This document shows positions 19,738 to 57,545 of a stretch of 64,000 nucleotides of DNA, in pieces. The notes below the pieces were generated by a model. That model did not search any database. It was not told where the DNA came from and was given only the letters and a program-made list of their open reading frames with translations. This DNA comes from Bartonella tribocorum CIP 105476 (GTDB taxonomy: Bacteria; Pseudomonadota; Alphaproteobacteria; Rhizobiales; Rhizobiaceae), in the NCBI RefSeq assembly GCF_000196435.1, contig NC_010161.1:868001-932000 (forward strand). Direction: 5' to 3'. How positions within the stretch are numbered: the first letter of the stretch is position 1; each line of letters opens with the position of its first letter. The position numbers and the translations under genes are program-made.

Positions 19738-20182
19738 CTAATTTATAAAGAATGTCCATTATTGTGTACGTTGAATGAGAGTCCTGAATATCGTAGGATT
19801 TTCTTATTAAAAAACTGCTCCATGTTGAATTAATCAAAAATATTTGCTTGCTTGTCACAAGCGGGGAAAGCCGTGTGGAGTAAAATTGTATAAGAGGACT
19901 AAAAATGCCTTTTATAAACCGCTTCAAGTGCCAAGGGGTATTGCAACATTTTAGGGCTGGAAAAGTGTGTGATGGTGCCGGCTTACTTCGTCTTAAGCGT
20001 AAAGATAGTTATACTCAATGGATTTACCATTACTATTCACTGTCGACATTGGGAAATGGGCTTGGGCGTATTGAGAGATATTTCCTTAAAACAAGCGTGT
20101 GAATGCGCAACGCCAAGGGTGTTCTGTTTTACGTGAGGGGTATGATCCCATTAAAGGGCATAAGCATTTTTTTCATCCATAA
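19738..20182 (+). repeat. Dispersed integrase-leader repeat, copy A (longest copy)
   Basis: This is the most complete member of a family found at nine places in this window. A roughly 167-bp leader contains CAAGCGGGGAAAGCCGTGTG and ends in AGAGGACTAAAAATG. It is followed by about 278 bp of integrase-like coding sequence. Other copies share the leader but stop earlier in the coding part. Confidence 0.8.
19905..20182 (+). pseudogene. Phage-type tyrosine integrase, N-terminal fragment, frameshifted
   Basis: The ATG at 19905 follows an AGAGGA ribosome-binding site and opens a frame with CDGAGLLRLKRK and QWIYHY, matching the arm-binding N-terminus (DUF4102 type) of phage and island integrases. 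The match continues in a second frame from about 20041 (EMGLGVLRDISLKQA) and in a third from 20123 (SVLREGYDPIKGH), so at least two frameshifts have occurred. The catalytic domain is missing. It is a decayed fragment, not a functional recombinase. Confidence 0.75.
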
Positions 20183-20321
20183 TTTCAAATATGCAAATTA
20201 TTCCTTGAATTCAAGTAAATAGTTTGAATTTTATTCAGTTTTTTATCTTCATTTAGAGTTTTTTGTGGTTTATAAGATTACAACTTATAATTGTTTTATG
20301 TTAAAAAAATACACTAAAAAA

Positions 20322-20354
20322 TTGCATTTAGACATAAATAAAACACATTATGAT
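20322..20354 (+). promoter_or_regulatory. Promoter-like motif shared with autotransporter gene 1
   Basis: TTGCAT at 20322-20327, a 21-nt gap with AAAACACAT, and TATGAT at 20349-20354 mirror the sequence at 10994-11026 upstream of the first autotransporter. The distance to the ATG is about 70 bp. The role as a promoter or operator is inferred. Confidence 0.35.
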
Positions 20355-20425
20355 ACAATTTAAAATGAGCTACCTGCGTAGCCGCGGGATATTTCTCTAA
20401 ATAATTGAAGAGTGGAGTGTGGATA

Positions 20426-22990
20426 ATGAGGTATAAATACAAGTTAAGTTTTTCAGTATTGATGATCAGTAGTTGTCTTGTGCAAGTTGCAAATGCAGTT
20501 GAGAGTAGGAATAGAGAGTTAACAAAAGTAGGAGATATGAGAAATGGAGGGACGGTACCAAAAGGTTCAGCACTGATTAGCCGTACTTTCAGCAATAATG
20601 TTACAATCGAAGATGGTGGTGTTGAGATTGTTGAGAATGGAAAAACTTCCTTGAAATCCACTATTAAAAAAGGAGGGATGCAAATAGTTACACGTGGAGG
20701 AACTGCACTAGAAGCTAAAATTTTAGGAGGTCAGCAGTTTGTTCATGAAGAAAAAAACATTGATCTTAGAAGTGTGGTTAGAGGAAGTAGTGCGTATAAT
20801 ACCACAGTTTCTGGGGGTGGTGGAGCAGTAGGACAGCAGAATGTATATGATGGGGCATGGACTTGGTATACGAAAGTAGGAAATAACGGAGAACAAAATC
20901 TTTATGCGGGAGAAAGAAAAGAGGGGGGTAGGTCAATGGCTACAGAGGTCTCTGGGAATGGTAGACAGCATGTCTTAGCGTATGGAACCTCTTATACTAC
21001 TACTTTGAAGGATCAAGCTACTCAAGTAGTATATCCTCAAGGGTTTGTGGATACTTTAACGATTACGGATTTTGCCCAATCGTGGTTACATGTTAATGTG
21101 AAAGATGTTGTGGGAAAAGTAAGGATCAATGGTCACGGAGAACTTTATTTGTTTGCTGGTGATAGGACAAATCATACGACTAAGAAAAAGATTCCTATAG
21201 AAGGGAGAGCTGAGGAAACAATATTTGAGGTTGGTGAACGGAATATAGGAGAAAAACCTCAGGTTAAAATTGAAGATTTAGGGGGGCAGGATGGGACTGT
21301 TATTTTTACTTCTATTCCGTATGATCCACGACATATTTCACTTCATGTTGAGAAGCTTTCAGGGGATTTACATTTTCGCTTCAATATTAGTGCTGCAGGG
21401 GATGTGAGTGATTATTTGTCGATTGATGATGGCAGAGGTAATCACAAAATAAGAGTTGCAGATTCTGGTCGTGAAATTACAGGTCCTCTCTCACAAAGGA
21501 ATAGTTTTGTTACTGAGTTTCCGTTAATTACCGATAGAAGTCACAATGGCGGAGCTAATTTTACTTTGGCAGATCTTTCGGGCAAGGACATTACAGCTGT
21601 TGATAGTGGAGTCTATCAGTATCAATTGCTGAAGAGAGAAAGATGTGCTAGCTCTAGTGGTAATGCTACAATTTGGTATTTAAGTAGAGCCGGAGGTACG
21701 GAACGTTCTAGTCCTGAAGTAGAGTGTGTAAACAGGAAAACAAAGATTCCTGTTGCATTGTCTGATCAAGGTGCTTCATCTGGAGGAAAAAAGACTGGTC
21801 GTCGTCCACCTACTAAAAAAGAGCAACCTAAGCAACGGCCTCCGCGTCATTTAAGAGAAACACAGAATGTTTCTAGTGTTTCGGTATCTTCTTCTCAAGA
21901 AAAACGGACGCATGTGGTGTTCCCTCCAACAGGTTCTCGCCCTCTTTCTGATGAAAAGCAAGCGGTTGTTGTTTCAGCCTCTTCTCAATCTTCAGCTGAT
22001 CAAATGACTTTACGTCCAGTTCATAAAGATCAAACTTCTCCACAATTAAGTGAGAAGCTTTCAGTTTCTGACTTTTTAACCACACCTTCTACAGATGCAG
22101 TATTGTCTATGTCTGTAGCGCCAGCGATGGTATTTCACAATGAAATGCAAAGCGTGCGTGCGGGAAGAGGAATTCTCGATAAAAGTAAAAAGAATACGGT
22201 TTTATGGACCTATGCGATTAAGTCGAAAGAAAGCATTGCGACAGAGCATATAGATTTTAAGCTGGATCAGACCGGTATCGTTTTGGGGATTAATGGCTTA
22301 AGCGAATGGGAAAATGGAGATTTTTATATCGGTGGTTTTGGCAGTTATGATCATGCCCGTGTTGCGCATGCACGGGGGGGGACCAGCGGTATCAATAGTT
22401 ATGGCATTGGTGCTTATGTCACGTATTTAGATCATAGTGGATGGTATCTCGATAGTATTTTAAAATATAACCATTATCAAAATACCCTAAAGGCCGTTTC
22501 AACGAATGGTTTAGGGATTGAAGGAACTTATACGCAATGGGCGGTGGGCAGCTCCTTTGAAGTGGGGTATCGACTTCAGACCTCACAGAGCAGTTGGCTC
22601 CAGCCTTATGGACAATTTACATGGTTGAAAGTTGAAGGTAAAGAAATCAAGTTATCGAATGATATGACAGGTGATATGCGTCCGTTTACTTCATTACGCA
22701 GTGAGGTTGGTTTATCTTTAGGGTATGAATTTGGCTCTCGTATGAATTCTTCATCCCTTGCGTATATTACCGCAGCATGGATGCGTGAGCATAAAGATGA
22801 TAATCAAACGTTGATTAATCAGCGCCATCCATTTACCACGGACGTATCAGGGAATGCGGGTAAATTAGGAATAGGTTTAAGCAGTTTGGTGAGTGAGAAG
22901 TTGAAGTTCTATGGAGAGGCCCATTATATTAAAGGGCGTAAAACAAAACAGTCTCTTCAGGGCATTATAGGGGTACGCTATAGTTTCTAA
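20426..22990 (+). CDS. bafA: BafA-like autotransporter, single passenger module
   Basis: This 854-residue surface autotransporter has a signal peptide ending ANA (22-24), one AIDA-type passenger module (about 40-415, ending IWYL), a basic and Ser/Pro-rich linker (about 425-550) and a C-terminal beta-barrel (about 552-854, ending RYSF). The passenger features (KKGGMQ, VYPQGFVDTL) fit my memory of the Bartonella angiogenic factor BafA, whose released passenger signals to endothelial cells. The symbol is tentative. ATG 20426 is preferred over a TTG at 20405. The barrel and linker end are nearly identical in DNA to gene 1 but not to gene 2. Confidence 0.78.
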   Translation: MRYKYKLSFSVLMISSCLVQVANAVESRNRELTKVGDMRNGGTVPKGSALISRTFSNNVTIEDGGVEIVENGKTSLKSTIKKGGMQIVTRGGTALEAKILGGQQFVHEEKNIDLRSVVRGSSAYNTTVSGGGGAVGQQNVYDGAWTWYTKVGNNGEQNLYAGERKEGGRSMATEVSGNGRQHVLAYGTSYTTTLKDQATQVVYPQGFVDTLTITDFAQSWLHVNVKDVVGKVRINGHGELYLFAGDRTNHTTKKKIPIEGRAEETIFEVGERNIGEKPQVKIEDLGGQDGTVIFTSIPYDPRHISLHVEKLSGDLHFRFNISAAGDVSDYLSIDDGRGNHKIRVADSGREITGPLSQRNSFVTEFPLITDRSHNGGANFTLADLSGKDITAVDSGVYQYQLLKRERCASSSGNATIWYLSRAGGTERSSPEVECVNRKTKIPVALSDQGASSGGKKTGRRPPTKKEQPKQRPPRHLRETQNVSSVSVSSSQEKRTHVVFPPTGSRPLSDEKQAVVVSASSQSSADQMTLRPVHKDQTSPQLSEKLSVSDFLTTPSTDAVLSMSVAPAMVFHNEMQSVRAGRGILDKSKKNTVLWTYAIKSKESIATEHIDFKLDQTGIVLGINGLSEWENGDFYIGGFGSYDHARVAHARGGTSGINSYGIGAYVTYLDHSGWYLDSILKYNHYQNTLKAVSTNGLGIEGTYTQWAVGSSFEVGYRLQTSQSSWLQPYGQFTWLKVEGKEIKLSNDMTGDMRPFTSLRSEVGLSLGYEFGSRMNSSSLAYITAAWMREHKDDNQTLINQRHPFTTDVSGNAGKLGIGLSSLVSEKLKFYGEAHYIKGRKTKQSLQGIIGVRYSF

Positions 22991-22996
22991 TGATAG
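22035..22996 (+). repeat. Near-identical direct repeat, copy 2 (autotransporter beta-domain)
   Basis: This is the second copy of the 962-bp block at 15719-16680. The two blocks are in direct orientation and flank all of gene 2 and the passenger part of gene 3, so recombination between them would remove 6316 bp and leave gene 1 intact in frame. Confidence 0.95.
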
Positions 22997-23384
22997 GGGT
23001 GTTTTTTGATTGATCTCGGTGTGTGAGGGGATTTTCGAACTTAGATGTGAAGTGTCTCGATCCGTCTTCTTTAAAAGAAGAAGATTTTTTAAAAAGTATA
23101 TATTTTTCGTGTTGGTTTTTTCTTATAATTTTTATTGCTTAAATGGTCATTTTGATGGGAGGCATTGAGGAATATAAAAGGAGTTTAACATTTACTAAGA
23201 AGCGGATGCGCTCTTATGATGGGGTGAGAAATGGCATGCATACCTATTTTTATTGAAGTCTTTTTATAATTCATTCTATGTTTTTAAGAATTTATATAGA
23301 TTTTTGCAGAGTCACTTGGCAAAAGGCTGCTTGCTCGTTATAGAAATAGCCAGAGAATTTTATAAATAAAATAAAGGTGATTAA
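22997..23384. other. Gap between the autotransporter cluster and ndk
   Basis: About 390 bp of AT-rich sequence with no ORF or clear repeat. It marks the right edge of the accessory block, where the backbone order resumes with ndk. An AAAGGTG ribosome-binding site precedes ndk. Confidence 0.35.
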
Positions 23385-23807
23385 ATGGCTTTAGAGCGTA
23401 CTTTTTCAATGATTAAACCAGATGCAACACGTCGTAATTTGACGGGTGCAATTACGAAAATGCTTGAAGATGCGGGCTTGCGTGTTATTGCATCTAAACG
23501 TGTGTGGATGAGCAAGCGTGAGGCTGAAAAATTTTATGCTGTTCATAAAGAACGCCCTTTTTTTAGCGAATTGGTTGAATTTATGTCTTCTGGTCCAACA
23601 GTTGTACAGGTTTTGGAAGGAGAAAACGCAATAGCTAAAAACCGTGAAGTGATGGGTGCTACAAATCCTAGTGATGCAGAAGAAGGAACAATTCGTAAGG
23701 TTCATGCTTTGTCGATTGGTGAAAATTCTGTCCATGGCTCCGATAGTGCTGAAACGGCAAAAACAGAAATTACTTTTTGGTTTTCTGAGATAGAAATTGT
23801 TGGTTAA
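23385..23807 (+). CDS. ndk: Nucleoside diphosphate kinase
   Basis: Ndk transfers the gamma phosphate between nucleoside triphosphates and diphosphates through a phosphohistidine. The 140-residue length is standard. The catalytic H117 lies in NSVHGSDS, and FSMIKPDA (residues 7-14) is the family opening. The gene is single, with its own ribosome-binding site and a strong terminator directly downstream. Confidence 0.97.
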
Positions 23808-23826
23808 TAAAAGCGTAAATAAGAAG

Positions 23827-23859
23827 AAAAAACCCGAAAGATAATGTTTCGGGTTTTTT
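23827..23859 (+). terminator. Rho-independent terminator of ndk
   Basis: AAAAAACCCGAAA (23827-23839) pairs with TTTCGGGTTTTTT (23847-23859) around a 7-nt loop, with the U-tract in the 3' arm. It sits 20 bp after the ndk stop. Confidence 0.9.
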
Positions 23860-23868
23860 CTTACAAGA

Positions 23869-24096
23869 TTATAGATCTCTTTGATAGATATGCAGTTTCA
23901 CCGTTTTTTCTGCTTTTAATATTGCAACTGTTTTTTCGAGCGCCTATTTACTCTTTTCTTCAATGTCTTTTATCTGTACACCAACTTCGTTTGTGATGGG
24001 CAAAAGAAGTGTTTTAGTTGATTCATCATCAATAGATTTGAAATACGTAGATTTAGGGTAACTCTTCTCTTGTTTAAGTTGCAGCAAGATAGGGTA
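23869..24096 (-). pseudogene. Possible decayed coding fragment between ndk and pgsA
   Basis: On the minus strand a 76-codon frame is broken by one internal TAG (23944-23946). On both sides it reads like protein: TLLLPITNEVGVQIKDIEEK, then after the stop ALEKTVAILKAEKTVKLHIY. No start codon or family is recognisable. It may be the 3' end of a gene once downstream of pgsA. The coding-like composition is the only evidence. Confidence 0.3.
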
Positions 24097-24119
24097 TCAT
24101 TATAAATCAAGAGACAATT

Positions 24120-24698: not shown

Positions 24699-24773
24699 CA
24701 TAGAGCTATTTTTAATTCTTGTGAAAGAGAATATATCCCCTAAAAGTAACAAGGCTAAGGTGATGAAACAAGC

Positions 24774-26798: not shown

Positions 26799-27034
26799 TA
26801 TTCTTTTTTATTAAATAATGGTTATTTATGTCTTTAATAGTTTTTGTCCATCAATAACACATTATAGCATAAGAGCCTGATTTTAGAGTGCCTATTTTTC
26901 ATAAAAAATATAAGCGTTGTTATTTAAGATAGCTTTATGAATATGCCTCATTGATTCATTAAAAATGATTAGAATAGGAAATCTATGATGATAAGAGGAT
27001 AGATCTTCTAAGAAAAAATAATTACGAAATAAAG
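26799..27034. other. Upstream region of uvrC
   Basis: These 236 bp are AT-rich with no ORF. They lead into integrase-leader repeat copy B. The uvrC promoter should be near 26800-26900. Confidence 0.3.
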
Positions 27035-27315
27035 CATTGATTTACAAAGATAGTTTATCATTGTTGATATTGAATTATAAACTCCTAAATAGCGTAATAT
27101 TCTCTCATTTCAAACCTATTCTATGTTAAATCAATCAAAACTATATCTCTTGCATGTTACAAGCGGGGAAAGCTGTGTGGAGTGAAACTGTACAAGAAAG
27201 GACTAAAAATTTCTCTTACGAGTCGTCTCAAGTGCTAACGACTGTTGCACATTGAGGGCTGGTAAGATATACAACAGTACTGAATTACCTCTTTTATGAG
27301 GCGTAAAGAGGGGGG
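27035..27315 (+). repeat. Dispersed integrase-leader repeat, copy B
   Basis: The sequence aligns with copy A from TTGATTTA through CAAGCGGGGAAAGCTGTGTG and AGAAAGGACTAAAAAT, then on into the integrase N-terminal codons as far as CGTAAAGAG. The start codon has become TTT and stops interrupt the frame, so nothing is encoded. It fills most of the uvrC-rlmJ gap. Confidence 0.75.
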
Positions 27316-27454
27316 ACTCAAGAGCTTTAATATTCTATGAATTACCTAATAATTATAAACCTACTATATGTTTATATTATCCAAAAAATAATAGAATTTA
27401 CAGCCTTTGTATCTTACAAAAGGGTATTTTTAGGGAAAATATGCAAGAAAAAAT

Positions 27455-28318: not shown

Positions 28319-28552
28319 GGAGGAAACTCTATCATATGGATAATTGTATCAGATTATTAGCATAGAATAATAGAATTGATATCCATAAAATTTTCTTTTA
28401 TAAATCAAATAAGACCCTCATCAAAAAACTATACGCATAAAATATGAATGTCATGGGAGCATTTATTCATTACGATTTTAAATTTTTTATATGAAAGTTG
28501 GACAGTAAGAGGATAAACATTTGAATGGAAGCTCTTCGACTTAATAAAGAGG

Positions 28553-28710
28553 GAAGCTGGCATCATTATATCCCTAAATATTATAACTTATTTGCTAGCG
28601 TCTTTGACACTTAAGCTGGTCTATAAGAGCCGTTTTAATCATTTTGATCTCTCTATGCTAACCTTGTTTGTGATGTGCAAGTGAATGATTTTTATAAATG
28701 AATACATTTT
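28553..28710 (-). repeat. Dispersed integrase-leader repeat, copy C (degenerate)
   Basis: Read on the minus strand, this stretch aligns with the integrase start region and the inner leader: the plus-strand AAGCTGGCATCAT, GACACTTAAG and GTGATGTGCAAGTGAATGATTTT correspond to AAGCCGGCACCAT, GGCACTTGAG and GTAACGTGCAAG in other reverse copies. It has many substitutions and is the weakest copy. Confidence 0.5.
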
Positions 28711-32490: not shown

Positions 32491-32494
32491 GAGA

Positions 32495-34572: not shown

Positions 34573-34880
34573 TTAAACCAATAGGCACGCATCAGAACGT
34601 TTTAATCTTCTGCTTTCGGAGCTAATTCTGCAATAACATGATCTTTCTGCTCGCTTTGCTCTTTTCGATGATTCAAGATACCAAGTAATGCTTGAGGAGT
34701 CGAATAACCAATTTGTGGTATTGCTCTTTCTTTTCAAGCTGTTCATATATGATAAAGTACTGACGTGCTTCATATACTTTATCATTATGCTTGATCATTG
34801 AAAGGTGTTTACTTGTGTCTAATGTCATGTGATAGCAGAAAACCATTGGTTTAGAAGAGCCGTTCGCTGGGTTCATTCGA
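34573..34880 (-). pseudogene. AntA/AntB-family phage antirepressor, frameshifted remnant
   Basis: On the minus strand one frame reads YHMTLDTSKHLSMIKHNDK and then YEARQYFI, the conserved core of AntA/AntB antirepressors. A second frame continues with TPQALLGILNH, KDHVIAELAPKAED, which is the usual middle of such proteins, before a stop. The N-terminus is missing and there is at least one frameshift. It lies next to repeat copy D in the same orientation, so both may come from one phage-derived insertion. Confidence 0.65.
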
Positions 34881-34911
34881 TTACTATCATCTTTGTGTTG
34901 ATGAAGTATAA

Positions 34912-35155
34912 GACGATAGCATCGTACTATCTGTCAGCATTCAATGTTCCGACTGCTTTTGCAGTTAAGAGGAGGCATGAAAAGAGATATTTCACTTCCT
35001 ATCATAAATAAATTTTCTCTCCATGTTCATTTCACAGGTGTGATGTGCAAGAAAATCATTTTGATTCATTCAAAGGGTTTGAAATGAGGGAGTTTTGCGG
35101 TATTTAGCTCTATCATTTGACATTTAAAATAATGAATTATCTCTATAAATTAAAT
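34912..35155 (-). repeat. Dispersed integrase-leader repeat, copy D
   Basis: On the minus strand this aligns with the whole leader: the outer part (GGGTTTGAAATGAGGGAG on the plus strand matches the complement of CTCTCATTTCAAACC in copy B), the GTGATGTGCAAG core and then the integrase start region to TTCAATGTTCCGAC. It extends farther into the coding part than most copies. No intact frame remains. Confidence 0.65.
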
Positions 35156-35430
35156 TTTTTTCATTAGAAAAATTATTTTATATCATTTATTGAGTGAGTA
35201 AGAAGGCTTCTCGTTGTAGGATATATGATAGAGAGAAATAAATCTGTTTTTTAAATATTTTTCTTATTGTATTCTATCTCTTAAGGATTTATTGCATTTT
35301 TATAAAGCTGAGATTAAATTATCTTGTCATCGCTTTTTATAATGAATTCTTTAGGAAAGTTTTTCTGAATCAGGATTTTATTTTAACAGAGTGGAAAATA
35401 ATACCTGAAGTTTAACTATAGGAGATAAAA

Positions 35431-36729: not shown

Positions 36730-36949
36730 AGTATTATTTAATAAAATAAATATTCTTGCTTAGCCATAAAAGACGGGGGGTATTATTTTATTGTGCGGCA
36801 AAATACCGTTGTTTAGGGTGGTCATATAAGGAACATAATATACATTAACGCATTAAGTGTATTTTAATACAGCAGCAAATATTCAGAATTAGGCTAGTCT
36901 GTGGTATCTAGTGTATCACATAAGGTGATAAGCCTCTGGCACTAACAAC
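36730..36949. other. Gap after the Mth938 gene
   Basis: These 220 bp are AT-rich with no ORF. They lead directly into repeat copy E. Confidence 0.3.
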
Positions 36950-37146
36950 GCATTGATTTATAATGATAATTTAGCGTTATTCATATTGAATGAGAGTCCC
37001 GAATAACCTAAGATTGTCTCATTTTAAATTAGTTTATATTGCTTCAATCAAAACCACTCATTTGCACATAACAAGTGGGATGAATGTGTGGATCAAATTT
37101 GTATAAGAAAGGACTAAAAATGCTTCTTATGATCGTCTCAAGTAAC
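36950..37146 (+). repeat. Dispersed integrase-leader repeat, copy E
   Basis: A full leader, from CATTGATTTATAATGATAAT to AAGAAAGGACTAAAAATGC, is followed by only about 25 bp of the integrase start (CTTCTTATGATCGTCTCAAG) before it joins an inverted copy. The 5' part is the best preserved example of the outer leader. Confidence 0.75.
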
Positions 37147-37149
37147 AAG

Positions 37150-37236
37150 CCGGCACCATCATTATATTTGCCTGCTCCCAATGTTGCGACAGATCTTGCA
37201 TTAAGACGGTTCATAAGAAGCATTTTTAGTCCTTTT
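37150..37236 (-). repeat. Dispersed integrase-leader repeat, copy F, tail-to-tail with E
   Basis: On the minus strand this reads AGGACTAAAAATGCTTCTTA followed by TGAACCGTCTT, CAACATTGGGAGCAGG and GATGGTGCCGGCTT, the integrase start region in opposite orientation to copy E. Its leader is lost beyond about 37236. With E it makes a large inverted repeat with arms at about 37112-37142 and 37206-37234. Confidence 0.75.
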
Positions 37237-37830
37237 TAAAGAGTACTTACATACCCGCTCTACGTGTGAAGTGAAAGGGAATAGATTTGAAACAAGAGAG
37301 TCAAGTCATAAAATCTTAGTTTTTTTCATTCAACAGACAAAACGATAAATTATTATTATAAATTAATTTGTTATGAGCAGTAGGAACATGTTAAGAGCAA
37401 TTGGATTTTTGACAGACAGATGTGGGTGGAAATCTTTGTTCTTTGAGGTGGCGGGAAGAGGTCAATAATTTGTTTTAAGTCTTTGTGATCAGTACATTAT
37501 CATCTATTCAGTCAAAAAGTGTTTTGCATTGTCTGTTGTTCTAAGTTTCATGATGCATGTTACGGTTCATTTTTGGCTGTTTTTACGATAAATAAAAGCT
37601 TAAATCCTATAAGATAAATTTTATCAAAAAAATGATTTATTTAATTTTAAAGATTCTTCTTTTTGAAAAGAAAAGACCCTAAGAAGAAATTTTCATTCAT
37701 AATACGGTTAAAAGACACATTTAAAAATCTTATTCTCTGAGCTGTATTTTCTTATCTCTCATTTTTTAATATGAATAAAAAGAGAATTTTAATTTAATTG
37801 CTAAAAAAGGAACGTTAATAGGCTCATAGA
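37237..37830. other. Gap before the squalene/phytoene-synthase-like gene
   Basis: About 590 bp of AT-rich sequence. I see no supportable gene. The ribosome-binding site AAGGAACG at about 37806 is near its right end. Confidence 0.35.
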
Positions 37831-38865: not shown

Positions 38866-39098
38866 GGACAAGCACCATTGTTATATCGATCACCTTCCAA
38901 TATTGTGCAGCCCTTGTCCTCTTCATAAGAAGTATGCCCTTTCTTTAATGTTTATCCAAACGCTAATTCTGCTTATAGCGTGCAAGCGAGAGGTTTTGAT
39001 TGATTCAATCATAAACAGATTTGGAATAAAAGAAGCTTACGGTATGCAGGATTTTTATTCAGCATAAATAAACTATATTGTCATGATAAATCAATGCA
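38866..39098 (-). repeat. Dispersed integrase-leader repeat, copy G
   Basis: On the minus strand it reads TGCATTGATTTATCATGA at the outer end, then GATTGAATCAATCAAAACC, TTGCACGCTATAAGC, TTAAAGAAAGGGC and the integrase start region to ATGGTGCTTGTCCCGC. The full leader is present with point changes, and the coding part is truncated. Confidence 0.7.
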
Positions 39099-39800
39099 TT
39101 ATCTGATAAAGGAAAACATAAGATAAAGCTTAATACATTGATTCATTTGATGAAAAATTTTGATATTAAGTGCTCTGAATGTGTTGGTCGCGTTTTATTT
39201 TTAAATGAAATATAATTTCTGTTTTTTATGAGAGCAGTGATCTTAGCGGCCTATTAAGTCTATAAAAAAAAACGCTCATTTTTGAGAAATTAAAATGATG
39301 AAGCCATAATCGATAACTGTTATGATATATTAAAAATATTAATTTATCATGAAGTTTTTTCTCTCATATCGCATGAAAGTCTTGAAGGGAAGAAGATTTC
39401 CTCATTTTAGATCATGTTTAGAATGAATTTTTAAAATAGTTTTTTCCATATCATAAGTTTGGGTGTGTCAATGAAAATCATTTAAGGAAGAAACAATAGG
39501 CTCCTTATGAATGAATATTAAGATTAGTAATATGACGAGCTGTAAATGGATGATAATAGAGACGAGATTTATAGCTTAATTTGGATGGATGAATTGCTTA
39601 CTGCATTGAAAAAAGGGACTCCACATTGTCTATTGACTATTTTCTCGCAAATTGACACATACACTGATTTGCGAGAGAGCTCATTATAATGCCGATTTTT
39701 AAATATAAGCAAACAAGAGATCGCTCTTACCTTTTCAACGATAGACGAAGTACTGATAAAAACTCTATCAAATAAGCTTTTTAAATTATGTATATCCTTT
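39099..39800. other. Gap downstream of ppiD, with a perfect hairpin
   Basis: This 700-bp AT-rich stretch has no gene that I can support. At 39643-39652 TCTCGCAAAT pairs perfectly with ATTTGCGAGA at 39667-39676 across a 14-nt loop. There is no T-run, so it is not a typical terminator, although it lies 125 bp past the ppiD stop. Confidence 0.4.
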
Positions 39801-41687
39801 TTATTGGAGAGCGTTAAAGATCTGATTGTAGTTTTTGCTATTAATTTCCAAAGGATGTTCTTTATTGGCAATTTGTAACATTTCTAACTTGAGATCTTCT
39901 CTTATCATCATATCTATATTGGTCCGAACCTCAGGTGAAAGAGTATGAGGCGTGATATCTTTAGGCATCGTTACAGAATTTATTTGATAAATGATACGGT
40001 TTGTTGCAACCGGACCTTTTATGATGCCATAATGACCTTTGGGACCAGAAAATAATGCTTTAACCCCTTCAACACCAAGAATTTCAAAGGGATCTTGACG
40101 CCGGAGGGGTGGTGTTGTTTGTTTTGTAACACCAAGTGTCCGAGCAAGGTCAACAAGACTTTTTCCTTCCATAAACTGTTTGAGAGCATTTTGGGCTTTT
40201 TCATCAAGAAGGCGCTGAGTTTCCTCACTTTTCCATTGAGAAAGAACATCGAGCTCAGCTTCTTCAAGTGTTTTATCGCGGGCCGGAATAATTTTATCGA
40301 CCTTATACCAGAGATATCCACCATTTTGAAAAGAGAGAGGATCAAGATCGACTCCTTCATTGGATTGATAGATGGCATCGAGTAAAGCATCTTTTTGAGG
40401 CAAATCCGTGAGGGTTTCACCTTCAAGCGTTTTGCCCGTTTTATCAAGGGTAATTGTGCGCAGAGATAATTTGTATTGGTCAGCAAGTTCTTTGAGAGAA
40501 GCACCTTCAAAACGAGCATTTTCAATGGCGACATAATTGTTACGGATATCATCAGTCGCACGATTTTTGGCAAGTGTTTGGCGAATACTTTCTTCTACAC
40601 TTTCAAAAGGAAGAGAACTTGAAGGTTCAATATGTGTGACGCGAATGAGGACAGGTCCCTGTAAGTCATTTATTACAGGACTGACTTGCCCTTGTTGGAG
40701 TTCAAAAATTTCAGATGCGAGATGATTAGGAAGTTCATTTTCTGCAAGAGGCCCTTTTTTGATGTCATTAAGAGTCTTTTTTTCAGCTTTTACCAGTTCA
40801 TCAAAACTCAATCCATCGGCTATTTTTTTTGCTGCATTATCGGCTTCTTCGCGTGTGGGAAATCGCAGTTCTTCGAATGTACGCTTTTCAGGCGTTACAA
40901 AATGTGAAGTATTTTGGGTATAATAAGCTTTTGCCTCATCTGTTGAGATATCTTTAGGTTTTACGAAATCGTTAAGTTCCATCGATAGCAAAGAGACAGT
41001 ACGGTATTCCGGAGCGCGAAATTCACTTTGATGTGTTTCAAACCATTTTTGCAGTGTTTCGTGATCAGGATCAGCAATTGTTTGCTCTTTTAGATCAATA
41101 ATGAGATAATCAGCGCTCCGCTTTTCTTCTTGATAAAGAGCAAGCGCTTTATAAAAGAGATTGGGGGCTTTCATATCAGAAAGTAAAGCGGCAATAAGTT
41201 GGTTACGCTTTTCTTGTTTGGTGTAATAATTAAGAAAAGCACTTTCACCGATCCGTAAATGCTGAAGATAGTTATAAAATAAATCTTTATTAAAAGTGCC
41301 ATTTATCTGAAACATCTTATCAGAACCAATCGTATGAGCGATTGTATCTTTTGAAAGACTTATTTTCATTTTACGGGCTTGTTCATCAAGCAGTACATTT
41401 TGTTGCAATTGATTAAACACAAAAGCAGGAATTTGGTATTGCTGCATTTCATTTGGTGTAAACATTCGTCCAAGATGAGCAGCCTGGGCTAAACGTGCGC
41501 TTTGATCGGCAAGTGCGAGACGATAATCATCAATAGTGATTATGGACTTTCCAGAAGTAATAAGATCTCTTTCGCTTTTTGTGTGTAACTGTGGTATTCC
41601 CCATAAGAGAATGAAGCATAAGAGTAAAATAGCAAGAAAAATTCTGAAAATCCAAGAATTTGCAGCACTTCTTATGACGTCAAGCAT
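39801..41687 (-). CDS. ppiD: Inner-membrane-anchored peptidyl-prolyl isomerase PpiD (SurA_N family)
   Basis: PpiD is a membrane-anchored periplasmic chaperone at the Sec exit. The 628-residue product has a short cytoplasmic N-terminus (MLDVIRSAANSW), one membrane helix (about 14-32), a large SurA_N-like helical region to about 230, and a parvulin-like PPIase domain (about 240-360). A long C-terminal part follows. It is divergent from tpiA with a 154-bp shared promoter region, the arrangement typical of Rhizobiales. Confidence 0.93.
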   Translation of the reverse strand: MLDVIRSAANSWIFRIFLAILLLCFILLWGIPQLHTKSERDLITSGKSIITIDDYRLALADQSARLAQAAHLGRMFTPNEMQQYQIPAFVFNQLQQNVLLDEQARKMKISLSKDTIAHTIGSDKMFQINGTFNKDLFYNYLQHLRIGESAFLNYYTKQEKRNQLIAALLSDMKAPNLFYKALALYQEEKRSADYLIIDLKEQTIADPDHETLQKWFETHQSEFRAPEYRTVSLLSMELNDFVKPKDISTDEAKAYYTQNTSHFVTPEKRTFEELRFPTREEADNAAKKIADGLSFDELVKAEKKTLNDIKKGPLAENELPNHLASEIFELQQGQVSPVINDLQGPVLIRVTHIEPSSSLPFESVEESIRQTLAKNRATDDIRNNYVAIENARFEGASLKELADQYKLSLRTITLDKTGKTLEGETLTDLPQKDALLDAIYQSNEGVDLDPLSFQNGGYLWYKVDKIIPARDKTLEEAELDVLSQWKSEETQRLLDEKAQNALKQFMEGKSLVDLARTLGVTKQTTPPLRRQDPFEILGVEGVKALFSGPKGHYGIIKGPVATNRIIYQINSVTMPKDITPHTLSPEVRTNIDMMIREDLKLEMLQIANKEHPLEINSKNYNQIFNALQ

Positions 41688-47231: not shown

Positions 47232-47639
47232 ATGAGAGGTATAATCATTAGTCAAGATCAAGGAACATATCTCGTTTCAGGTGATGATGGTAAGCGTTAT
47301 CAGTTTGCGACTTGGGATTGGTTGGGAAAGAAACCACCAAGGATTGGTGATACTGTTGATTTTGTCTGTGAAGGAGGTGTGGTCAGTTCTGTTTTTCCGT
47401 TGTTGAGATCAGGTGCAGAGAACTCAAAGATAATGTTTGCACTTCTTTGTTGGGTTGCAGGGATCTTTGGTGTTCATCGTTTTATGGTTGGGAGAGTTCG
47501 TACCGGTGCTTTAATGCTCATTCTATCTTTATCGGTTGCTGGGTTGGTGATCACTGGTATTTGGGCAATCGTTGATTTTATACTCATTGTTGCAGGAAAA
47601 TTTACAGATAAAAATGGAAATCAGATTACAGATTTGTAA
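47232..47639 (+). CDS. TM2-domain protein with N-terminal OB-like domain, copy 1
   Basis: This 135-residue membrane protein has an N-terminal soluble part (about 1-58, MRGIIISQDQGTYLVSGDDG and a GDTVDFVCEG strand) that resembles a small beta-barrel. A TM2 domain follows, with the GIFGVHRFMVGR signature and two membrane helices. Function is unknown. It is the first of three tandem paralogs placed between eno and ftsB, where most Rhizobiales have none. Confidence 0.85.
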   Translation: MRGIIISQDQGTYLVSGDDGKRYQFATWDWLGKKPPRIGDTVDFVCEGGVVSSVFPLLRSGAENSKIMFALLCWVAGIFGVHRFMVGRVRTGALMLILSLSVAGLVITGIWAIVDFILIVAGKFTDKNGNQITDL

Positions 47640-47789
47640 AAATTTTATAATTTTTATAATAATGTAAAGAGCAGGGAATTGCTTTTTATTTTTACAGATA
47701 TATTAAGTCCATCATGCAGAATTATTGTACTCTATTTCTTTAATGTGAGATATTAAGAAAAATATGCACAGTTAAATAAAACTATTGAA

Positions 47790-47994
47790 AAAGACTGTGC
47801 TATTTTATATGGGTGAAACAAAGACGCAAATCGATTAAAGTGTACTTTGAGCTGCAGCTTATAGCAGTGGAAAGCATTAGGTTATCGGGGGGCTTAGCTA
47901 TTTTAATTTCACGTTTATCACGACTGCTATGAATTTTATTTACGCCGTGAGGTTAATCAGCATATTATAAAATTAGAAAAATCTCTTTATGAAT
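47790..47994 (+). pseudogene. ftsB fragment 1 (5' part, frameshifted)
   Basis: After TM2 copy 1 the sequence matches the start of intact ftsB at 49477: KQRRKSIKV in one frame, and after disrupted sequence RREVNQHIIKLEKSLYE in another. There are frame changes, and the coiled-coil C-terminal part is absent. It is followed 34 bp later by TM2 copy 2, so it marks the end of the first duplicated unit. Confidence 0.7.
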
Positions 47995-48028
47995 AATACA
48001 TGGGGAGCAGCTTTATAGGTGGGCAAAG

Positions 48029-48481
48029 ATGAAAGGTATGATTATTGGTCAAGATCAAGGGATGTATCTTGTTTCGGGAGATGATGACAAACGTTATCAA
48101 TTTTCGTGTGAAGATTGGTTAGGAAAAAAAGCACCAAAGGTAGGAGACACTGTTGATTTTGTGTGTGAAGGAGAGAGCGTTAAGTCTGTTCTCCCTTTTT
48201 GGGATCGAACAACAACAGAACAATCGCGATTAGCTTTAGCTCTTATTTGTTGGTTTTTTGGATGCTTGGGTATTCACCGCTTTATGGCCGGTAAAATTGC
48301 GACAGGTACTGTAATGCTTGTTATAAGTATACTAGGTATAATAACTGGATTTTTTACTTTTGGGGTAGGATTTGTTTTTTTTATTCTTTTTATAACTATG
48401 CCTTGGTCATTTATTGATTTTATAGTTATTTTATCTGGGTATTTTAGGGATGTAAATGGCAATAAAATTACAAAGTGGTAG
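48029..48481 (+). CDS. TM2-domain protein with N-terminal OB-like domain, copy 2
   Basis: This 150-residue paralog of the 47232 protein has the same N-terminal domain (MKGMIIGQDQGMYLVSGDDD) and TM2 signature (GCLGIHRFMAGK). The hydrophobic loop between the two membrane helices is longer. It is intact and preceded by a ribosome-binding region (GGTGGGCAAAG) that resembles the one before copy 3. Confidence 0.85.
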   Translation: MKGMIIGQDQGMYLVSGDDDKRYQFSCEDWLGKKAPKVGDTVDFVCEGESVKSVLPFWDRTTTEQSRLALALICWFFGCLGIHRFMAGKIATGTVMLVISILGIITGFFTFGVGFVFFILFITMPWSFIDFIVILSGYFRDVNGNKITKW

Positions 48482-48616
48482 CAATCATATAAAGTTATAC
48501 ACAAACAAACATTTTATTTATTCTTATTAAGGTATTAATTTAATAATGTAAATTATTTAAGTATGTGTATCTAATGTTAAATATTAAATAAAATTATAAA
48601 TATTTAAATAAAAATA

Positions 48617-48823
48617 TTGAAAAAGACTGTACTATTTCATATAAGAAACAAAAGTGCAGATCGAACAACGTGCTTTGTATTACCACTTATAATTGCGGGA
48701 ATTTTAAGTTGTTGGGGGATTTTTAGCTTTTTAGATTGTCATATGCACGGTGAATACAGATTGTATTCATGCTGTGAGGTTTATCCAATATATTATCATA
48801 TTAGAAGAAAAACTTCTTTATGA
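48617..48823 (+). pseudogene. ftsB fragment 2 (truncated copy)
   Basis: A 68-codon frame matches the N-terminal half of intact FtsB: FVLPLIIAGILS and HGEYRLYS align with FVLPLMTVGVLS and HGEYGLYS of the 49477 gene. The coiled coil and C-terminal motifs are missing, and only a non-standard TTG could start it. It is probably not functional, though a short membrane peptide could still be made. Confidence 0.65.
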
Positions 48824-48847
48824 ATAACAATTTTATAGGTGGTGAAG

Positions 48848-49291
48848 ATGAAAGGTAAGATTATTGGTCTGGATCAGGGAAATTATTTTATTTCAGGTGC
48901 TGATGGTAAACGTTATCAGTTCTTGAGTAAGGATTGGTCAGGGAAAAAGCCGCCTAAGGTGGGTGATTCTGTTGATTTTGTGTGTGAAGGGGATAGCATT
49001 AAATCTGTTTCCCCTATCTTGTCAGCAGGGCAGTCACAACAATCAAAAGTGACGTTAGCGGTTGTTTGTTTTTTTCTAGGTGGACTAGGAATTCATCGTT
49101 TTATGGTTGGTAAAATTATAACAGGCATTGTAATGCTTCTTATAAGTATAATAAGTATAATAACTGTACTATTTATGTGGATAGGGTTTATTTTAATTGC
49201 CTTTATAATTATACCTTGGGTATTGATTGATTTTATAGTCATTTTAACAGGAAATTTTAAGGACAAAGATGGGTGTAAAATCACAAATTAG
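48848..49291 (+). CDS. TM2-domain protein with N-terminal OB-like domain, copy 3
   Basis: This 147-residue paralog opens MKGKIIGLDQGNYFISGADG and carries the TM2 signature GGLGIHRFMVGK and two membrane helices. ATG 48848 is preferred over a GTG at 48839 because the other two copies begin at the aligned methionine. It is followed by the only intact ftsB of the array. Confidence 0.85.
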   Translation: MKGKIIGLDQGNYFISGADGKRYQFLSKDWSGKKPPKVGDSVDFVCEGDSIKSVSPILSAGQSQQSKVTLAVVCFFLGGLGIHRFMVGKIITGIVMLLISIISIITVLFMWIGFILIAFIIIPWVLIDFIVILTGNFKDKDGCKITN

Positions 49292-52359: not shown

Positions 52360-53697
52360 ATGCCCATTAAAATTACAATGCCAGCGCTTTCCCCTACGAT
52401 GGAAGAGGGAAATTTAACAAAATGGAATATTAAGGAGGGCGATAAGGTTTCTTCTGGAGATGTTATTGCTGAAATTGAGACGGATAAAGCGACGATGGAA
52501 GTTGAGGCCGTTGATGAAGGTACGGTTGCCAAAATCGTTGTTCCTGCTGGAACACAAGGCGTTAAAGTGAATTCTTTGATTGTTGTTTTAGCAGAAGAAG
52601 GTGAAGAGTTAGCTGAAGCTGCAAAAGTTGTAGAAGAGACTTCTTCTTCTACAAGACAAGAATCAGAGGGCATAAAACAACCAGATTCTCTGAAGCCGAC
52701 GGACGCAAAGGGAGCAAAAATGTCTCATGAATCATCAGCTCAGCAATTAATACAGCAAGATAAAAAGAGGACTCGTCTTTTTGCCTCTCCTTTAGCGCGG
52801 CGATTAGCTTCTCAGGCAGGTCTTGATTTATCGCTTATTTCTGGGAGTGGTCCTCATGGACGTATTATTAAGTGCGATGTAGAAAAAGCTATGGGCGGTG
52901 ATATTTCTCAAGACTCGTCCCGGGTTGGAGAGGCAGCCGCAGCCGGTGTTTCTGACAAACAGATATTGCAACTCTTCAAAGAGGATGAATATATTTTCGC
53001 ACCCCATAATAATATGCGTAAAACGATCGCCACACGTTTGGTGGAATCAAAGCAAAGAGTTCCGCATTTCTATGTGACCGTAGATTGTGAACTTGATGCG
53101 CTATTAGCGTTGCGTACACAATTGAATGCTGCTGCTCCAATGGTTAAGACTCTGGAAGAAGCTAAGCCTACTTATAAGCTTTCTGTTAATGATATGGTCA
53201 TTAAAGCGGTTGCACTTTCTTTGAAAGCCGTTCCTGATGCGAACGTCTCTTGGCTTGAAGGTGGCATGCTTTATCATAAACATTGTGATGTTGGGGTTGC
53301 TGTTTCTGTTCCCAATGGATTAATTACGCCGATTATTCGCCATGCAGAGGAAAAGCCGTTATCGCTTATTTCCAAAGAGATGAAGGATTTTGCAAAGCGT
53401 GCGCGTGAACGCAAGTTAAAAATGGAAGAATATCAGGGGGGAACAACAGCTGTATCAAATATGGGGATGTATGGTGTAAAAAGTTTTTCTGCTATCCTTA
53501 ACCCACCACATGCGACGATTTTTGCGATTGGCGCAGGGGAGCAACGCGCCGTTGTTAAAAATGGTGCATTAGCCGTTGCAACAGTTATGTCGGTTACACT
53601 TTCTGTTGATCATCGTGCTGTTGATGGTGCTTTAGCAGCAGAGCTGGCACAAACTTTTAAGAAGATGATTGAAAATCCATTAGCAATGTTGGTTTGA
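52360..53697 (+). CDS. pdhC: Pyruvate dehydrogenase E2 (dihydrolipoyl acetyltransferase)
   Basis: E2 forms the core of the complex and transfers acetyl groups to CoA. The 445-residue protein has one lipoyl domain (K43), a peripheral-subunit binding domain (about 138-173, ASPLARRLA and SGSGPHGRI) and the catalytic acyltransferase domain ending with DHRAVDGA (about 417-424). Only one lipoyl domain is present, the second in the complex being on E1 beta. Confidence 0.97.
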   Translation: MPIKITMPALSPTMEEGNLTKWNIKEGDKVSSGDVIAEIETDKATMEVEAVDEGTVAKIVVPAGTQGVKVNSLIVVLAEEGEELAEAAKVVEETSSSTRQESEGIKQPDSLKPTDAKGAKMSHESSAQQLIQQDKKRTRLFASPLARRLASQAGLDLSLISGSGPHGRIIKCDVEKAMGGDISQDSSRVGEAAAAGVSDKQILQLFKEDEYIFAPHNNMRKTIATRLVESKQRVPHFYVTVDCELDALLALRTQLNAAAPMVKTLEEAKPTYKLSVNDMVIKAVALSLKAVPDANVSWLEGGMLYHKHCDVGVAVSVPNGLITPIIRHAEEKPLSLISKEMKDFAKRARERKLKMEEYQGGTTAVSNMGMYGVKSFSAILNPPHATIFAIGAGEQRAVVKNGALAVATVMSVTLSVDHRAVDGALAAELAQTFKKMIENPLAMLV

Positions 53698-53913
53698 ACG
53701 ATAGTTCTTCACGTAAATTATGAGCGTGTGTGTTAAGAGAGTAAAAGAGAATTTAAAAAGTTTGAAGAGGAATGCTATTGCTGTTTCTGGTTTGGGTAAA
53801 GCATTTATGTGAAGCATAGAGTAAAAAACATAAGATAAGTTTATCATGTTGGTTTTCAGTCTTAAGTTCAAAAAGTTCATATCCATTTTATATATATCCA
53901 TGGAGGAGTTACT
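53698..53913. other. Gap between pdhC and lpdA
   Basis: These 216 bp contain no gene. A strong GGAGG ribosome-binding site near 53902 precedes the GTG of lpdA. In many Rhizobiales a small hypothetical gene lies here; only eroded sequence is seen. Confidence 0.35.
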
Positions 53914-55374
53914 GTGGCAAATCTTTATGATGTAATTGTAATTGGATCAGGTCCAGGCGGATATGTAACCGCAATTCGTGCCGCGCAATGTGGCTTTAAG
54001 ACTGCAATTGTTGAGCGTGAACATCTGGGAGGGATTTGTTTAAATTGGGGATGTATTCCAACAAAGGCCCTTTTACGTTCGGCGGAAATGAAACATTTTG
54101 CTGAACATGCGAAGGATTATGGACTAAAAATTAATGGTTCAATTGAAGCAAACATCAAAGATGTTGTGACACGTTCACGCAGCGTTTCAGCACGTTTAAA
54201 TGCTGGTGTTGGTTTTTTAATGAAAAAAAACAAAATTGATATCATCTGGGGTGAAGCGAAGCTTACGAAAGAAGCAAAAGGAAACCAACCAGCGGAAATT
54301 ATGGTTTCTTCATCCTCCAAACCGGTTATGCAACCGCAAAATCCAATCCCTAAAGGAATATTAGGGAAGGGAACTTATCAAGCAAAGCACATCATTATTG
54401 CAACAGGAGCACGACCTCGTGTTCTTCCTGGTATTGAGCCAGATGGAAAGCTCATTTGGACTTATTTTGAAGCGATGATCCCGCCAGCAATGCCAAAATC
54501 GCTTTTGGTTATAGGGTCTGGGGCTATTGGTATTGAATTTGCTTCCTTTTATCGTGATATGGGCGCTGAGGTTACTGTTGTTGAAATGATGCCTCACATC
54601 ATGCCCGCTGAGGATATTGAAATTTCAACATTTGCTCGTAAACAGTTAGAGAAAAAAGGTTTACGTATTCTTTGCCAAGCAAAAGTAACAAAGGTTGAAA
54701 AAGCTTCCAATTCTGTGACAATACATATTGATGTTCAGGGCAAAACAGAAACAATGACTGTTGATCGTGTGATTTCCGCTGTTGGGGTGCAGGGTAATAT
54801 TGAGAATATCGGCTTAGAAGCGTTGGGTATAAAGACCGATCGTGGGTGTATTGTAACCGATGAATGGAGTTGGACAGGGATTACAGGTATTTATGCTATC
54901 GGTGATGTGGCTGGTCCTCCTATGTTAGCCCATAAAGCAGAAGAAGAAGGCGTGATATGCATTGAACACCTTGCAGGTTTGAAAAATACGCATCCACTTG
55001 ATAAAAGAAAAATTCCAGGGTGCACCTATTGCACACCGCAAGTTGCTTCTGTAGGTCTTTCAGAAGCAGCAGCAAAGGAAGCGGGTCATGATATACGTGT
55101 TGGTCGTTATTCTTTTTCCGCAAATGGCAAGGCAATTGCTTTGGGTGAAGATCAGGGGTTAGTAAAAACGATTTTTGATAAAAAAACAGGACAGCTTCTT
55201 GGCGCCCATATGGTAGGGGCGGAGGTAACAGAACTGATACAGGGTTTTGTTATTGCCATGAATCTGGAAACAACAGAGGAAGAATTAATGCATACTGTCT
55301 TTCCACATCCGACCTTATCGGAAATGATGAAAGAAAGTGTATTGGATGCTTATGGTCAAGTTTTAAACGCTTGA
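53914..55374 (+). CDS. lpdA: Dihydrolipoyl dehydrogenase (E3)
   Basis: E3 reoxidises the lipoyl group with FAD and NAD. The 486-residue protein has the FAD-binding GSGPGGY (11-17), the redox-active disulfide C42/C47 in GGICLNWGCIP, a second Rossmann motif (GSGAIGIEFAS, about 206-216) and the C-terminal dimer motif FPHPTLSE with the active-site His. It starts with GTG after GGAGG. Confidence 0.97.
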   Translation: MANLYDVIVIGSGPGGYVTAIRAAQCGFKTAIVEREHLGGICLNWGCIPTKALLRSAEMKHFAEHAKDYGLKINGSIEANIKDVVTRSRSVSARLNAGVGFLMKKNKIDIIWGEAKLTKEAKGNQPAEIMVSSSSKPVMQPQNPIPKGILGKGTYQAKHIIIATGARPRVLPGIEPDGKLIWTYFEAMIPPAMPKSLLVIGSGAIGIEFASFYRDMGAEVTVVEMMPHIMPAEDIEISTFARKQLEKKGLRILCQAKVTKVEKASNSVTIHIDVQGKTETMTVDRVISAVGVQGNIENIGLEALGIKTDRGCIVTDEWSWTGITGIYAIGDVAGPPMLAHKAEEEGVICIEHLAGLKNTHPLDKRKIPGCTYCTPQVASVGLSEAAAKEAGHDIRVGRYSFSANGKAIALGEDQGLVKTIFDKKTGQLLGAHMVGAEVTELIQGFVIAMNLETTEEELMHTVFPHPTLSEMMKESVLDAYGQVLNA

Positions 55375-55443
55375 TGATTTGGTTTTGAGTGAAAAATCTT
55401 ATATTTTTCATTGCGACTTCGTATTTATAAGGCAAAGGCTTAA

Positions 55444-56406
55444 ATGGTTACGGTTGTTGATAGAGTTACGAATAGACGTTTGCGTCATCCTGAAAAGGCA
55501 CATCGTCCGGATACAAGCGTTCAGAAAAAGCCGGATTGGATTCGTGTAAAAGCACCGACATCACCAGTTTATAAAGAAACGCATGGTATTGTCCGCACAC
55601 ATAAGTTAGTGACTGTCTGTGAAGAAGCAGGTTGTCCTAATATTGGTGAATGTTGGAGCCAGCGGCATGCCAGCTTTATGATTTTAGGTGAGATATGTAC
55701 ACGTGCGTGTGCTTTTTGTAATGTTGCAACAGGTATTCCGCTTGCCGTTGATGATGATGAGCCAGAACGTGTAGCTGATGCTGTTGCACGGATGGAATTA
55801 AAGCATGTTGTCATTACATCTGTTGATCGTGATGATCTTGCTGATGGTGGCGCTGAGCATTTTGCAAAAGTTATTTATGCGATTCGTCGAAAAGCGCCTA
55901 AAACGACAATTGAAGTTTTGACACCTGACTTTCGTCATAAGGATGGTGCTTTAGAAGTTGTCGTTGCTGCTAAGCCTGATGTTTTTAATCATAACTTAGA
56001 AACAGTTCCTTCTAAATATTTGAAGGTTCGTCCAGGAGCGCGTTATTTCCATTCAATTCGACTGTTACAACGCGTTAAAGAACTTGATCCAACAATTTTC
56101 ACAAAATCAGGAATTATGGTTGGCCTTGGAGAGGAACGAAATGAAATTCTGCAATTGATGGATGATTTACGTACTGCTGATGTGGACTTTATGACAATTG
56201 GACAATATTTGCAGCCTACGCGAAAACATCATCCAGTTATTCGTTTTGTGCCTCCTGAAGAGTTTGAATCTTTTGCCAAAATTGGTAAAGTAAAAGGGTT
56301 TTTACATATGGCTTCCAATCCTCTGACGCGTTCATCTCATCATGCAGGAGATGATTTTGCCATTTTGCAAAAAGCGCGTGATGAAAAATTTGCCTTACAG
56401 AGATAA
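55444..56406 (+). CDS. lipA: Lipoyl synthase
   Basis: LipA is a radical-SAM enzyme that inserts sulfur into octanoyl groups on lipoyl domains such as those of pdhB and pdhC upstream. Both iron-sulfur clusters have their ligands: C59, C64 and C70 for the auxiliary cluster ([12 protein letters not shown]) and C85, C89 and C92 for the radical-SAM cluster (CTRACAFC). The 320-residue length is standard. The next gene starts 2 bp after its stop. Confidence 0.98.
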
Positions 56407-56408
56407 TT

Positions 56409-56870
56409 ATGCCAACTTTTTCAACACATCGGCAAGTTGCCCATAGTGCTCGTGAGATGTTTGATCTTGTGTCAGATATTGAATGTTATCCTGAGTTTTT
56501 ACCCATGTGTGAGGCTTTAAGAATACGTTCTCGCAAAGAATGTGAGGAAAAGACATTGCTTCTTGCAGATATGACCGTTGGTTATAAGGTTATTCGAGAG
56601 ACATTTACGACCCAAGTTTTTCTTCAGCCCCAAAAAGGTTTGATAGAGGTTAACTATATTGACGGTCCATTTAAATATCTTGAAAATCGTTGGATTTTTC
56701 ATAATATTAAAAATACTCATGCATGTAATGTAGAATTTTTCATTGATTATGAATTTAAAAGTAAAATACTTGGACGTGTAATGGGCTCAATGTTTGATAT
56801 TGCGTTTCGTAAATTTACCGATGCTTTTGAAAAGCGTGCTCATCAGATTTATGGTTCTGCAATAACATAA
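56409..56870 (+). CDS. RatA / COQ10-type START-domain protein
   Basis: The 153-residue protein is a single polyketide-cyclase/START-like domain opening TFSTHRQVAHSAREMFDLVSDIE, given here in parts: THRQVAHSA then MFDLVSDIE and YPEFLP. Family members bind ubiquinone (COQ10) or were named RatA after an anti-ribosome activity in E. coli. In alphaproteobacteria the gene next to lipA probably supports respiration. Quinone binding is inferred. Confidence 0.85.
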   Translation: MPTFSTHRQVAHSAREMFDLVSDIECYPEFLPMCEALRIRSRKECEEKTLLLADMTVGYKVIRETFTTQVFLQPQKGLIEVNYIDGPFKYLENRWIFHNIKNTHACNVEFFIDYEFKSKILGRVMGSMFDIAFRKFTDAFEKRAHQIYGSAIT

Positions 56871-57005
56871 TCTATTCTGTTATTTTTTAACAAGACACAT
56901 TGTTTATAAAGGCGTAAAGATGAAAACCGATTTCCATCTTTATAATTTCTTTCTTTTTTAGGGCACATCCTTTAAACAGAACATCACAATAGAATTAGAA
57001 AAGAT

Positions 57006-57300
57006 GTTGATTTATAATGATAATCTAGCGTTATTGATGTTGAATTAAAACTCTTAATACCGTTTCTCTCGTTCCAAGTCTGTTTTTATGTTGAATCAAT
57101 CAAAACCACTTTCTTGCACGTTACAAGTGGGGAGAGCCGTGTGGATAAAAAACTATTAAAGAAAGGAATGTTATGCCTTTTATGAACGGTCTCAAGTGCC
57201 TAGGGTTATCGTCATATTGGGAGCTGACAAAGTGTGTGATGATGTTGGCTTGTGTTACATATTCATGGGCTTTGCTTTAAAGAAATATCTCTCAGCACAA
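57006..57300 (+). repeat. Dispersed integrase-leader repeat, copy H
   Basis: A full leader runs from GTTGATTTATAATGATAAT to AAAGAAAGGAATGTTATGCC, then the integrase start region to GTGTGTGATGATGTTGGCTT. After an internal deletion, a further piece (ATGGGCTTTGCTTTAAAGAA) corresponds to the later EMGLG...LK part of copy A. It lies in the gap between the RatA-like gene and pncC. Confidence 0.7.
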
Positions 57301-57379
57301 GTTATACCCATTTCACGGCAGCGCTTATAAATAGTATAAAACCCCTGTAAAAGTGTATAAAATCTATTGTGCACTCCAT

Positions 57380-57545
57380 TGACACTTATGAAGAAGTGAG
57401 TCTGCACTAAATTGGTTATCTCTTAGATGTTGCAACAGTTTTCCCTGCTTGTAACGTGCAAGAGACGAGTGGTTTTGTTTGTTTCAACATAAACAGGACA
57501 GGAGATAATCTTATGATATTTAGATCTTTCATTTCTAAGTTGGGA
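57380..57545 (-). repeat. Dispersed integrase-leader repeat, copy I, opposite to H
   Basis: On the minus strand, TGTTTATGTTGAAACAAACA, AAAACCACTCGTCTCTTGCA and CGTTACAAGCAGGG match the leader of copy H at the same relative positions. The outer leader and the integrase start are weaker. H and I face each other across about 80 bp. Confidence 0.65.

Follow-up and report, generated by a model that had tools for sequence, protein, structure and literature searches.

A 64-kb stretch of the Bartonella tribocorum CIP 105476 genome (NC_010161.1, here contig C2, positions 868001-932000; hereafter the window) carries a dispersed family of repeats, each consisting of a leader and the truncated start of an integrase gene (int). 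We tentatively read these repeats as left-end remnants of Bartonella tyrosine-integrase islands, each comprising the attachment (att)-side terminus, the leader and a short stretch of int from its 5' end, and frozen by recombination or deletion inside int. The basis of this reading is the intact islands, their sharp left end, the cores at three islands, the equal decay of leader and coding part, the asymmetry between the island ends and the clustered truncation points.

Distribution of the repeat family

The original prediction listed nine segments of this family within 38 kb of the window. Using a nucleotide profile built from four plus-strand copies (19738, 27035, 36950 and 57006), which match by construction, we found 11 places in the window, seven of them independent of the construction of the profile. 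All nine listed segments were recovered, with pairwise BLASTN between copies down to 2.1e-32. Their orientation needed amendment, as the segments at 28553, 34912, 37150, 38866 and 57380 are on the minus strand, with the leader start at the high coordinate. The leader, described as ~170 bp ending in a ribosome-binding site and ATG, is ~172 bp long (left edge near model position 10, ATG at 182), and good copies end in AAAGGACTAAAAATG; however, the 27 kb copy reads ATT. In the four plus copies, ~22, 81, 122 and 259 bp of the coding part, given as 25-280 bp, are retained. The copies in the window are 3'-truncated remnants of integrase islands.

The family spans the genome (G000; 2.64 Mb, two contigs), well beyond the 38 kb in which it was noticed. 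With a sequence-only leader model from 45 copies, all 150 scored candidates (of 2371 first-look candidates) matched at E <= 2e-11, so that the genome has at least 150 leader copies. Since the same model recovers just 6 of the 11 places in the window, the true copy number is probably above 150. The exact left-end 17-mer occurs 39 times in the genome, compared to 0 for the reversed control. Of 25 Bartonella genomes searched, 12 carry it, this genome among them; none of 16 other genomes of the order does. The best 80 of 237 loci encoding integrase relatives are all Bartonella records, and the top relatives among these 80 are from B. tribocorum L103 and Bartonella sp. AU16XJBT (99%). Integrase matches at E <= 1e-20 were found in 30 of 41 Bartonella genomes, some at ~50% identity, which are paralogs. 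We rejected clustering of the copies in the genome, given that 12 gaps below 5 kb were seen among 76 sites of the 17-mer vs. 10.1 expected (p = 0.295). No description of the repeat family was found in the open-licence literature searched.

Intact islands and their ends

We found intact elements with a full integrase, and these islands, with an intact tyrosine integrase of 388-400 aa, are the source of the repeats. The integrase open frames (388-400 codons) lie in islands adjoining other large genes, and the one integrase scanned has the domains Arm-DNA-bind_3, Phage_int_M and Phage_integrase. The cargo of one scanned island consists of a DUF3987 protein and a Type ISP restriction-modification enzyme, and other islands hold genes with the same N-terminal sequences, as judged by eye. 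As a separate observation, the intact island at L033 6815-11776 (C2 ~197314-202278) looks like a mobile defence island because a large Type ISP restriction-modification enzyme lies beside its integrase.

The leader is the integrase-side terminus of the island, with the att end at its sharp outer edge: 36 aligned copies share this edge and diverge beyond it. This supports one of the two options that had been offered for the leader, namely that its end is the recombining part. One island interrupts a phage-like gene, and an intact copy of this gene at another place in the genome shows the empty site. Eight left ends were paired with far ends by position and orientation, with the end repeats read by eye; seven pairs span ~15 kb and one ~26 kb. 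Direct repeats of 15-17 bp were found at three of the eight paired island ends (one with a mismatch). The cores differ between islands, and the islands are mosaic. Target duplication of random host sequence, suspected from one island, was rejected because three islands have an identical 16-bp sequence at their right ends.

A tRNA gene is the usual, non-defining target of tyrosine-integrase genomic islands; no tRNA gene is present in the window. Reading the left flanks of seven islands in six frames, we found most to be phage-gene-like (by eye, without a family search). In addition, intact islands near C2 1063570, 1080703 and 507058 lie in genes that by eye resemble phage ssb and terminase.

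One-ended polarity and truncation points

We found a strong left/right asymmetry, with the far island end seldom left behind. In searches of one kind, the leader side (281 bases) gave 180 first-look candidates, and the 40 scored yielded 42 matches. The search with the int C-terminus (445 bases) gave 36 candidates, all scored, with 21 matches, 12 of them near-complete, and the far-end search (146 bases) also gave 36 candidates, all scored, with 16 matches, 10 of them strong. In the window, the same far-end and C-terminus searches found no far island end and no int C-terminus. Copies truncated inside the leader are under-sampled, since copies were found via the leader; remnants with the C-terminus alone are detectable by the C-terminal search.

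Truncation points were taken from 124 uncut, truncated, left-anchored copies, which remained from 178 pieces in 449 kb after 37 without a left end and 17 that were either intact or interrupted by a stretch boundary were dropped. The ends are those of profile alignments and thus approximate (an extension with very permissive settings produced spurious ends and was set aside). In 97 of the 124 copies, the end lies short of int model position 440, and in the other 27 it lies at 440 or further on; the ends peak near positions 256-270, 366, 405 and 430. One 15-bp window holds 19 of 103 ends, relative to a maximum of 17 in 3000 uniform simulations.

Empty sites in relatives

Six sites with an empty relative were available, and five of the six are nearly clean in at least one comparison. 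At the 19.7 kb site, the ortholog in genome G001 compared to G011 leaves a gap of 0, and at the 27 kb site, the G019 ortholog leaves gaps of 7 and 10 relative to G011 and G001, respectively. The 36.9 kb site is nearly clean vs. G019, which in addition lacks a 59-bp inverted piece. A copy in G019 has a gap of 4 vs. G001, and the site at 2367 kb has a gap of 13 vs. G017 and of 25 vs. G051 and G056. A 5-bp repeat, AGGCA, was seen by eye at one site. The 57 kb site, which appears empty in G019, was rejected as an empty site and read as a deletion there, since an older minus copy is present in G001, G011 and G023; this place (G011 39373-39869 vs. G019) was excluded from the six, as was G017 49142-49266 vs. 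G011 and G001, which carry an older copy themselves.

In the mechanism that we propose, the islands, mostly of ~15 kb, would integrate at many relaxed targets, and most would leave again precisely and without trace. Some would recombine aberrantly, joining core-like TTA-rich sequences within the initial 250 bp of int to the att site at the far end. Such an event would delete everything from the remainder of int through the cargo to the far end, and the remnant, then unable to excise, would stay as a fossil of the integration site. We infer from anatomy both this freezing and the alternative that the units are mini-elements.

Decay of the leader and the RNA question

The leader was originally seen to be kept in most copies while the coding part is cut, and a function such as a small RNA was proposed as one reason. 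This pattern follows from the left end being constant while the right end varies, and in part from the detection of copies through the leader. A function of the leader need not be assumed. In 48 truncated copies, a subset picked by score and span, identity to the intact consensus is 78.6% for the leader and 77.9% for the coding part (Wilcoxon p = 0.27). RNAalifold on 45 leaders gave one 5-pair stem at -1.17 kcal/mol, with compensatory change at two pairs, and no conserved structure. One intact leader folds at -33.8 kcal/mol vs. -30.8 for its shuffles (z -0.81), and 36 of 200 shuffles were as good. There was no Rfam match at gathering score. Given the equal decay of the two parts and the absence of a conserved RNA fold, the putative small-RNA role of the leader is unsupported, and we rejected a small RNA or regulatory leader on these results together with the Rfam search. 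That the leader is kept for its own function, as a small RNA, promoter or regulatory target, is thus highly improbable, even though it is present in most detected copies and a Bartonella family of small RNAs upstream of genes is known (Brt, in the part of PMC5387305 that describes it).

Alternative origins of the remnants

The main rival to left-end remnants frozen in place is that the units of 260-440 bp are non-autonomous mini-elements, moved by the integrase of intact islands elsewhere. We consider this rather unlikely as an origin of the family; trans-mobilised mini-elements are possible for a subset of copies. It would account for short units inserted nearly cleanly at five of the six testable sites and for recurrent 3' ends, but no conserved right terminus or terminal inverted repeat was seen, and copies sharing a 3' end do not group together in a tree of 83 copies selected by score and span (class c430: nine rows, nine changes). 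In a larger tree of 161 copies, 81 of them full-length (78 rows were added from the best 80 of 237 related loci, and 10 were skipped), 52 of 74 truncated copies have a full-length copy, not another truncated one, as the closer neighbour, in favour of numerous independent truncations; for just 22 of the 74 another truncated copy is closer, as spreading mini-elements would have it. Four recent truncated copies at separate sites share a frame-breaking int insertion of ~11 bp, which also speaks for movement. This insertion is exact in four places of G000 and in 0 of 15 other Bartonella genomes in that search, though the G019 ortholog of one insertion-bearing copy shares it. A patch of ~110 bp around it is identical between C2 2367238-2367682 and L235, the G019 ortholog, while the whole match is 89%. 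This suggests that gene conversion between dispersed copies could have spread the insertion, and its value as proof of movement is weakened by the identical patch in orthologs.

Ordinary random decay, in which deletions whittle old islands down and the left end happens to stay recognisable, is in our judgement improbable. It fits copies that look old and neutral, with codon-position mismatch flattened in the remnants (0.208/0.175/0.256 vs. 0.072/0.043/0.157 in intact genes), and it fits mosaic islands and some unclean junctions. However, under it N- and C-terminal int remnants should be about equally numerous, whereas the leader side greatly outnumbers C-termini and far ends, and the clustered ends and nearly clean right junctions do not agree with it. 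Several results weigh against left-end remnants frozen by events inside int. The empty-site filter took gaps of <= 120 bp only and so favours clean sites, which lowers our confidence in the frozen-integration mechanism and raises it in random decay; the 38.9 kb site, with 50-76 bp, is not clean, and at 27 kb the copy in the window leaves a larger gap (30-47 bp) than the G019 ortholog does. No end repeat was found in four of the eight island pairs, and the repeat is partial in one (193 kb). Direct repeats at truncated copies are weakly above permutation (37 copies, p = 0.013), and the match between flank and breakpoint is weak (41 copies; p = 0.095, 0.016 and 0.019 for three window sizes). The asymmetry searches used queries of unequal length, and the larger tree is poorly resolved, with 79 of 157 inner branches open. 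One supported set in this tree holds six truncated copies without any of the 81 full-length ones, which fits mini-elements better. In addition, no recombination event was observed.

Copies and neighbouring genes in the window

The copies in the window sit among ordinary core genes, including those of the RlmJ, YajC, squalene/phytoene-synthase, SurA and CinA families. On the plus strand, the remnant at 19729-20163 has the leader, an ATG at ~19905 and ~259 bp of a broken integrase gene, to int model position ~438; its site is empty in G011 and G023, with the ortholog in G001. The remnant at 27029-27330, whose start codon is ATT, retains a coding part of ~122 bp, and its site has an ortholog in G019 and is empty in G011 and G001. 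A young remnant at 36945-37141 (ATG ~37120, ~22 bp coding part) is missing in G019 along with the next 59 bp, and the remnant at 56998-57253 (ATG ~57173, ~81 bp) was identified with the profile.

On the minus strand, an old remnant at 34887-35156 is common to relatives (profile and genome comparison), and the remnant at 38870-39104 is based on the profile and the empty-site comparison. The copy at 37136-37374, inverted, is a hybrid of an old leader (72% to the consensus) and a young coding part (93%), as shown by the profile and by identity. The weakest listed copy (28544-28696; profile E 3.7e-6) comprises the second half of the leader and the integrase start, with its left end unmatched. Under a longer model, the copy listed at 57380 splits into two pieces of an inverted neighbour copy, an integrase-side piece at 57252-57438 and a leader piece at 57443-57533.

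Two places were absent from the original prediction and raise its minimum of nine copies to the 11 above. One is an old, degraded leader remnant at 23940-24112 (minus strand), with family matches at the corresponding place in G001, G011, G019 and G023; the other is a weak, old leader remnant at 39336-39511 (plus strand), found with the profile.

Beside one remnant, ~250 bp (34584-34833) are without a match in G001, G011 and G023, and the family profile does not match them. Elsewhere in the window, two autotransporter-like genes (15998-16674 and 22314-22990) contain stretches of 300 and 242 bp that are 100% identical, which suggests recent duplication or conversion. Three tandem related genes with TM2 domains are found at 47232-49291.

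Comparison with known systems

Should the remnants indeed be integration-site fossils, past island integrations, and the way in which they were frozen, could still be read from the Bartonella chromosome. The one-ended polarity would be a new and testable fact about tyrosine integrases, and it would account for the many short integrase pseudogenes in Bartonella spacers without a regulatory RNA.

The passages of PMC2697382 on the fha-repeat of Bartonella grahamii mention no large set of truncated integrase-leader copies; this comparison is by description only. The Brt RNAs, as far as the relevant part of PMC5387305 describes them, lie 10-18 nt upstream of helix-turn-helix (HTH) trp genes in Bartonella henselae, have folding energies of -56.3 to -85.5 kcal/mol and occur in 33-34 copies in B. 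tribocorum. Both they and our family are genus-specific, repeated, leader-sized sequences upstream of a gene. Set apart by description, the leader here precedes an integrase, folds like its shuffles and has at least 150 copies. An HTH trp context like that of Brt was not seen in the aligned leaders, which run into the integrase start (no systematic scan for HTH genes was made). Unlike MITE-like elements (miniature inverted-repeat transposable elements), the repeats have no terminal inverted repeats and no shared right terminus, and their right ends vary between copies.

Self-disrupting integrases are described as exclusively archaeal in the part of PMC8371274 that deals with them. The archaeal suicidal integrases treated there likewise leave N-terminal integrase pieces apart from the rest at integrated sites, but their att site is inside int, whereas it is outside int in the paired islands here. 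It is conceivable, if doubtful, that the Bartonella integrase repeatedly uses core-like sites in the start of its own gene and so yields irreversible N-terminal stubs, or stubs that spread as trans-mobilised mini-elements, as a bacterial counterpart of self-splitting integrases that would have strewn one-ended remnants across Bartonella genomes.

The islands resemble tyrosine-integrase genomic islands in having the integrase at one end beside the att site and, at some islands, a direct-repeat core. They differ in that their cores vary by island and insertion is in prophage-like genes, and in their fossil record, which is one-ended and comprises at least 150 left ends.

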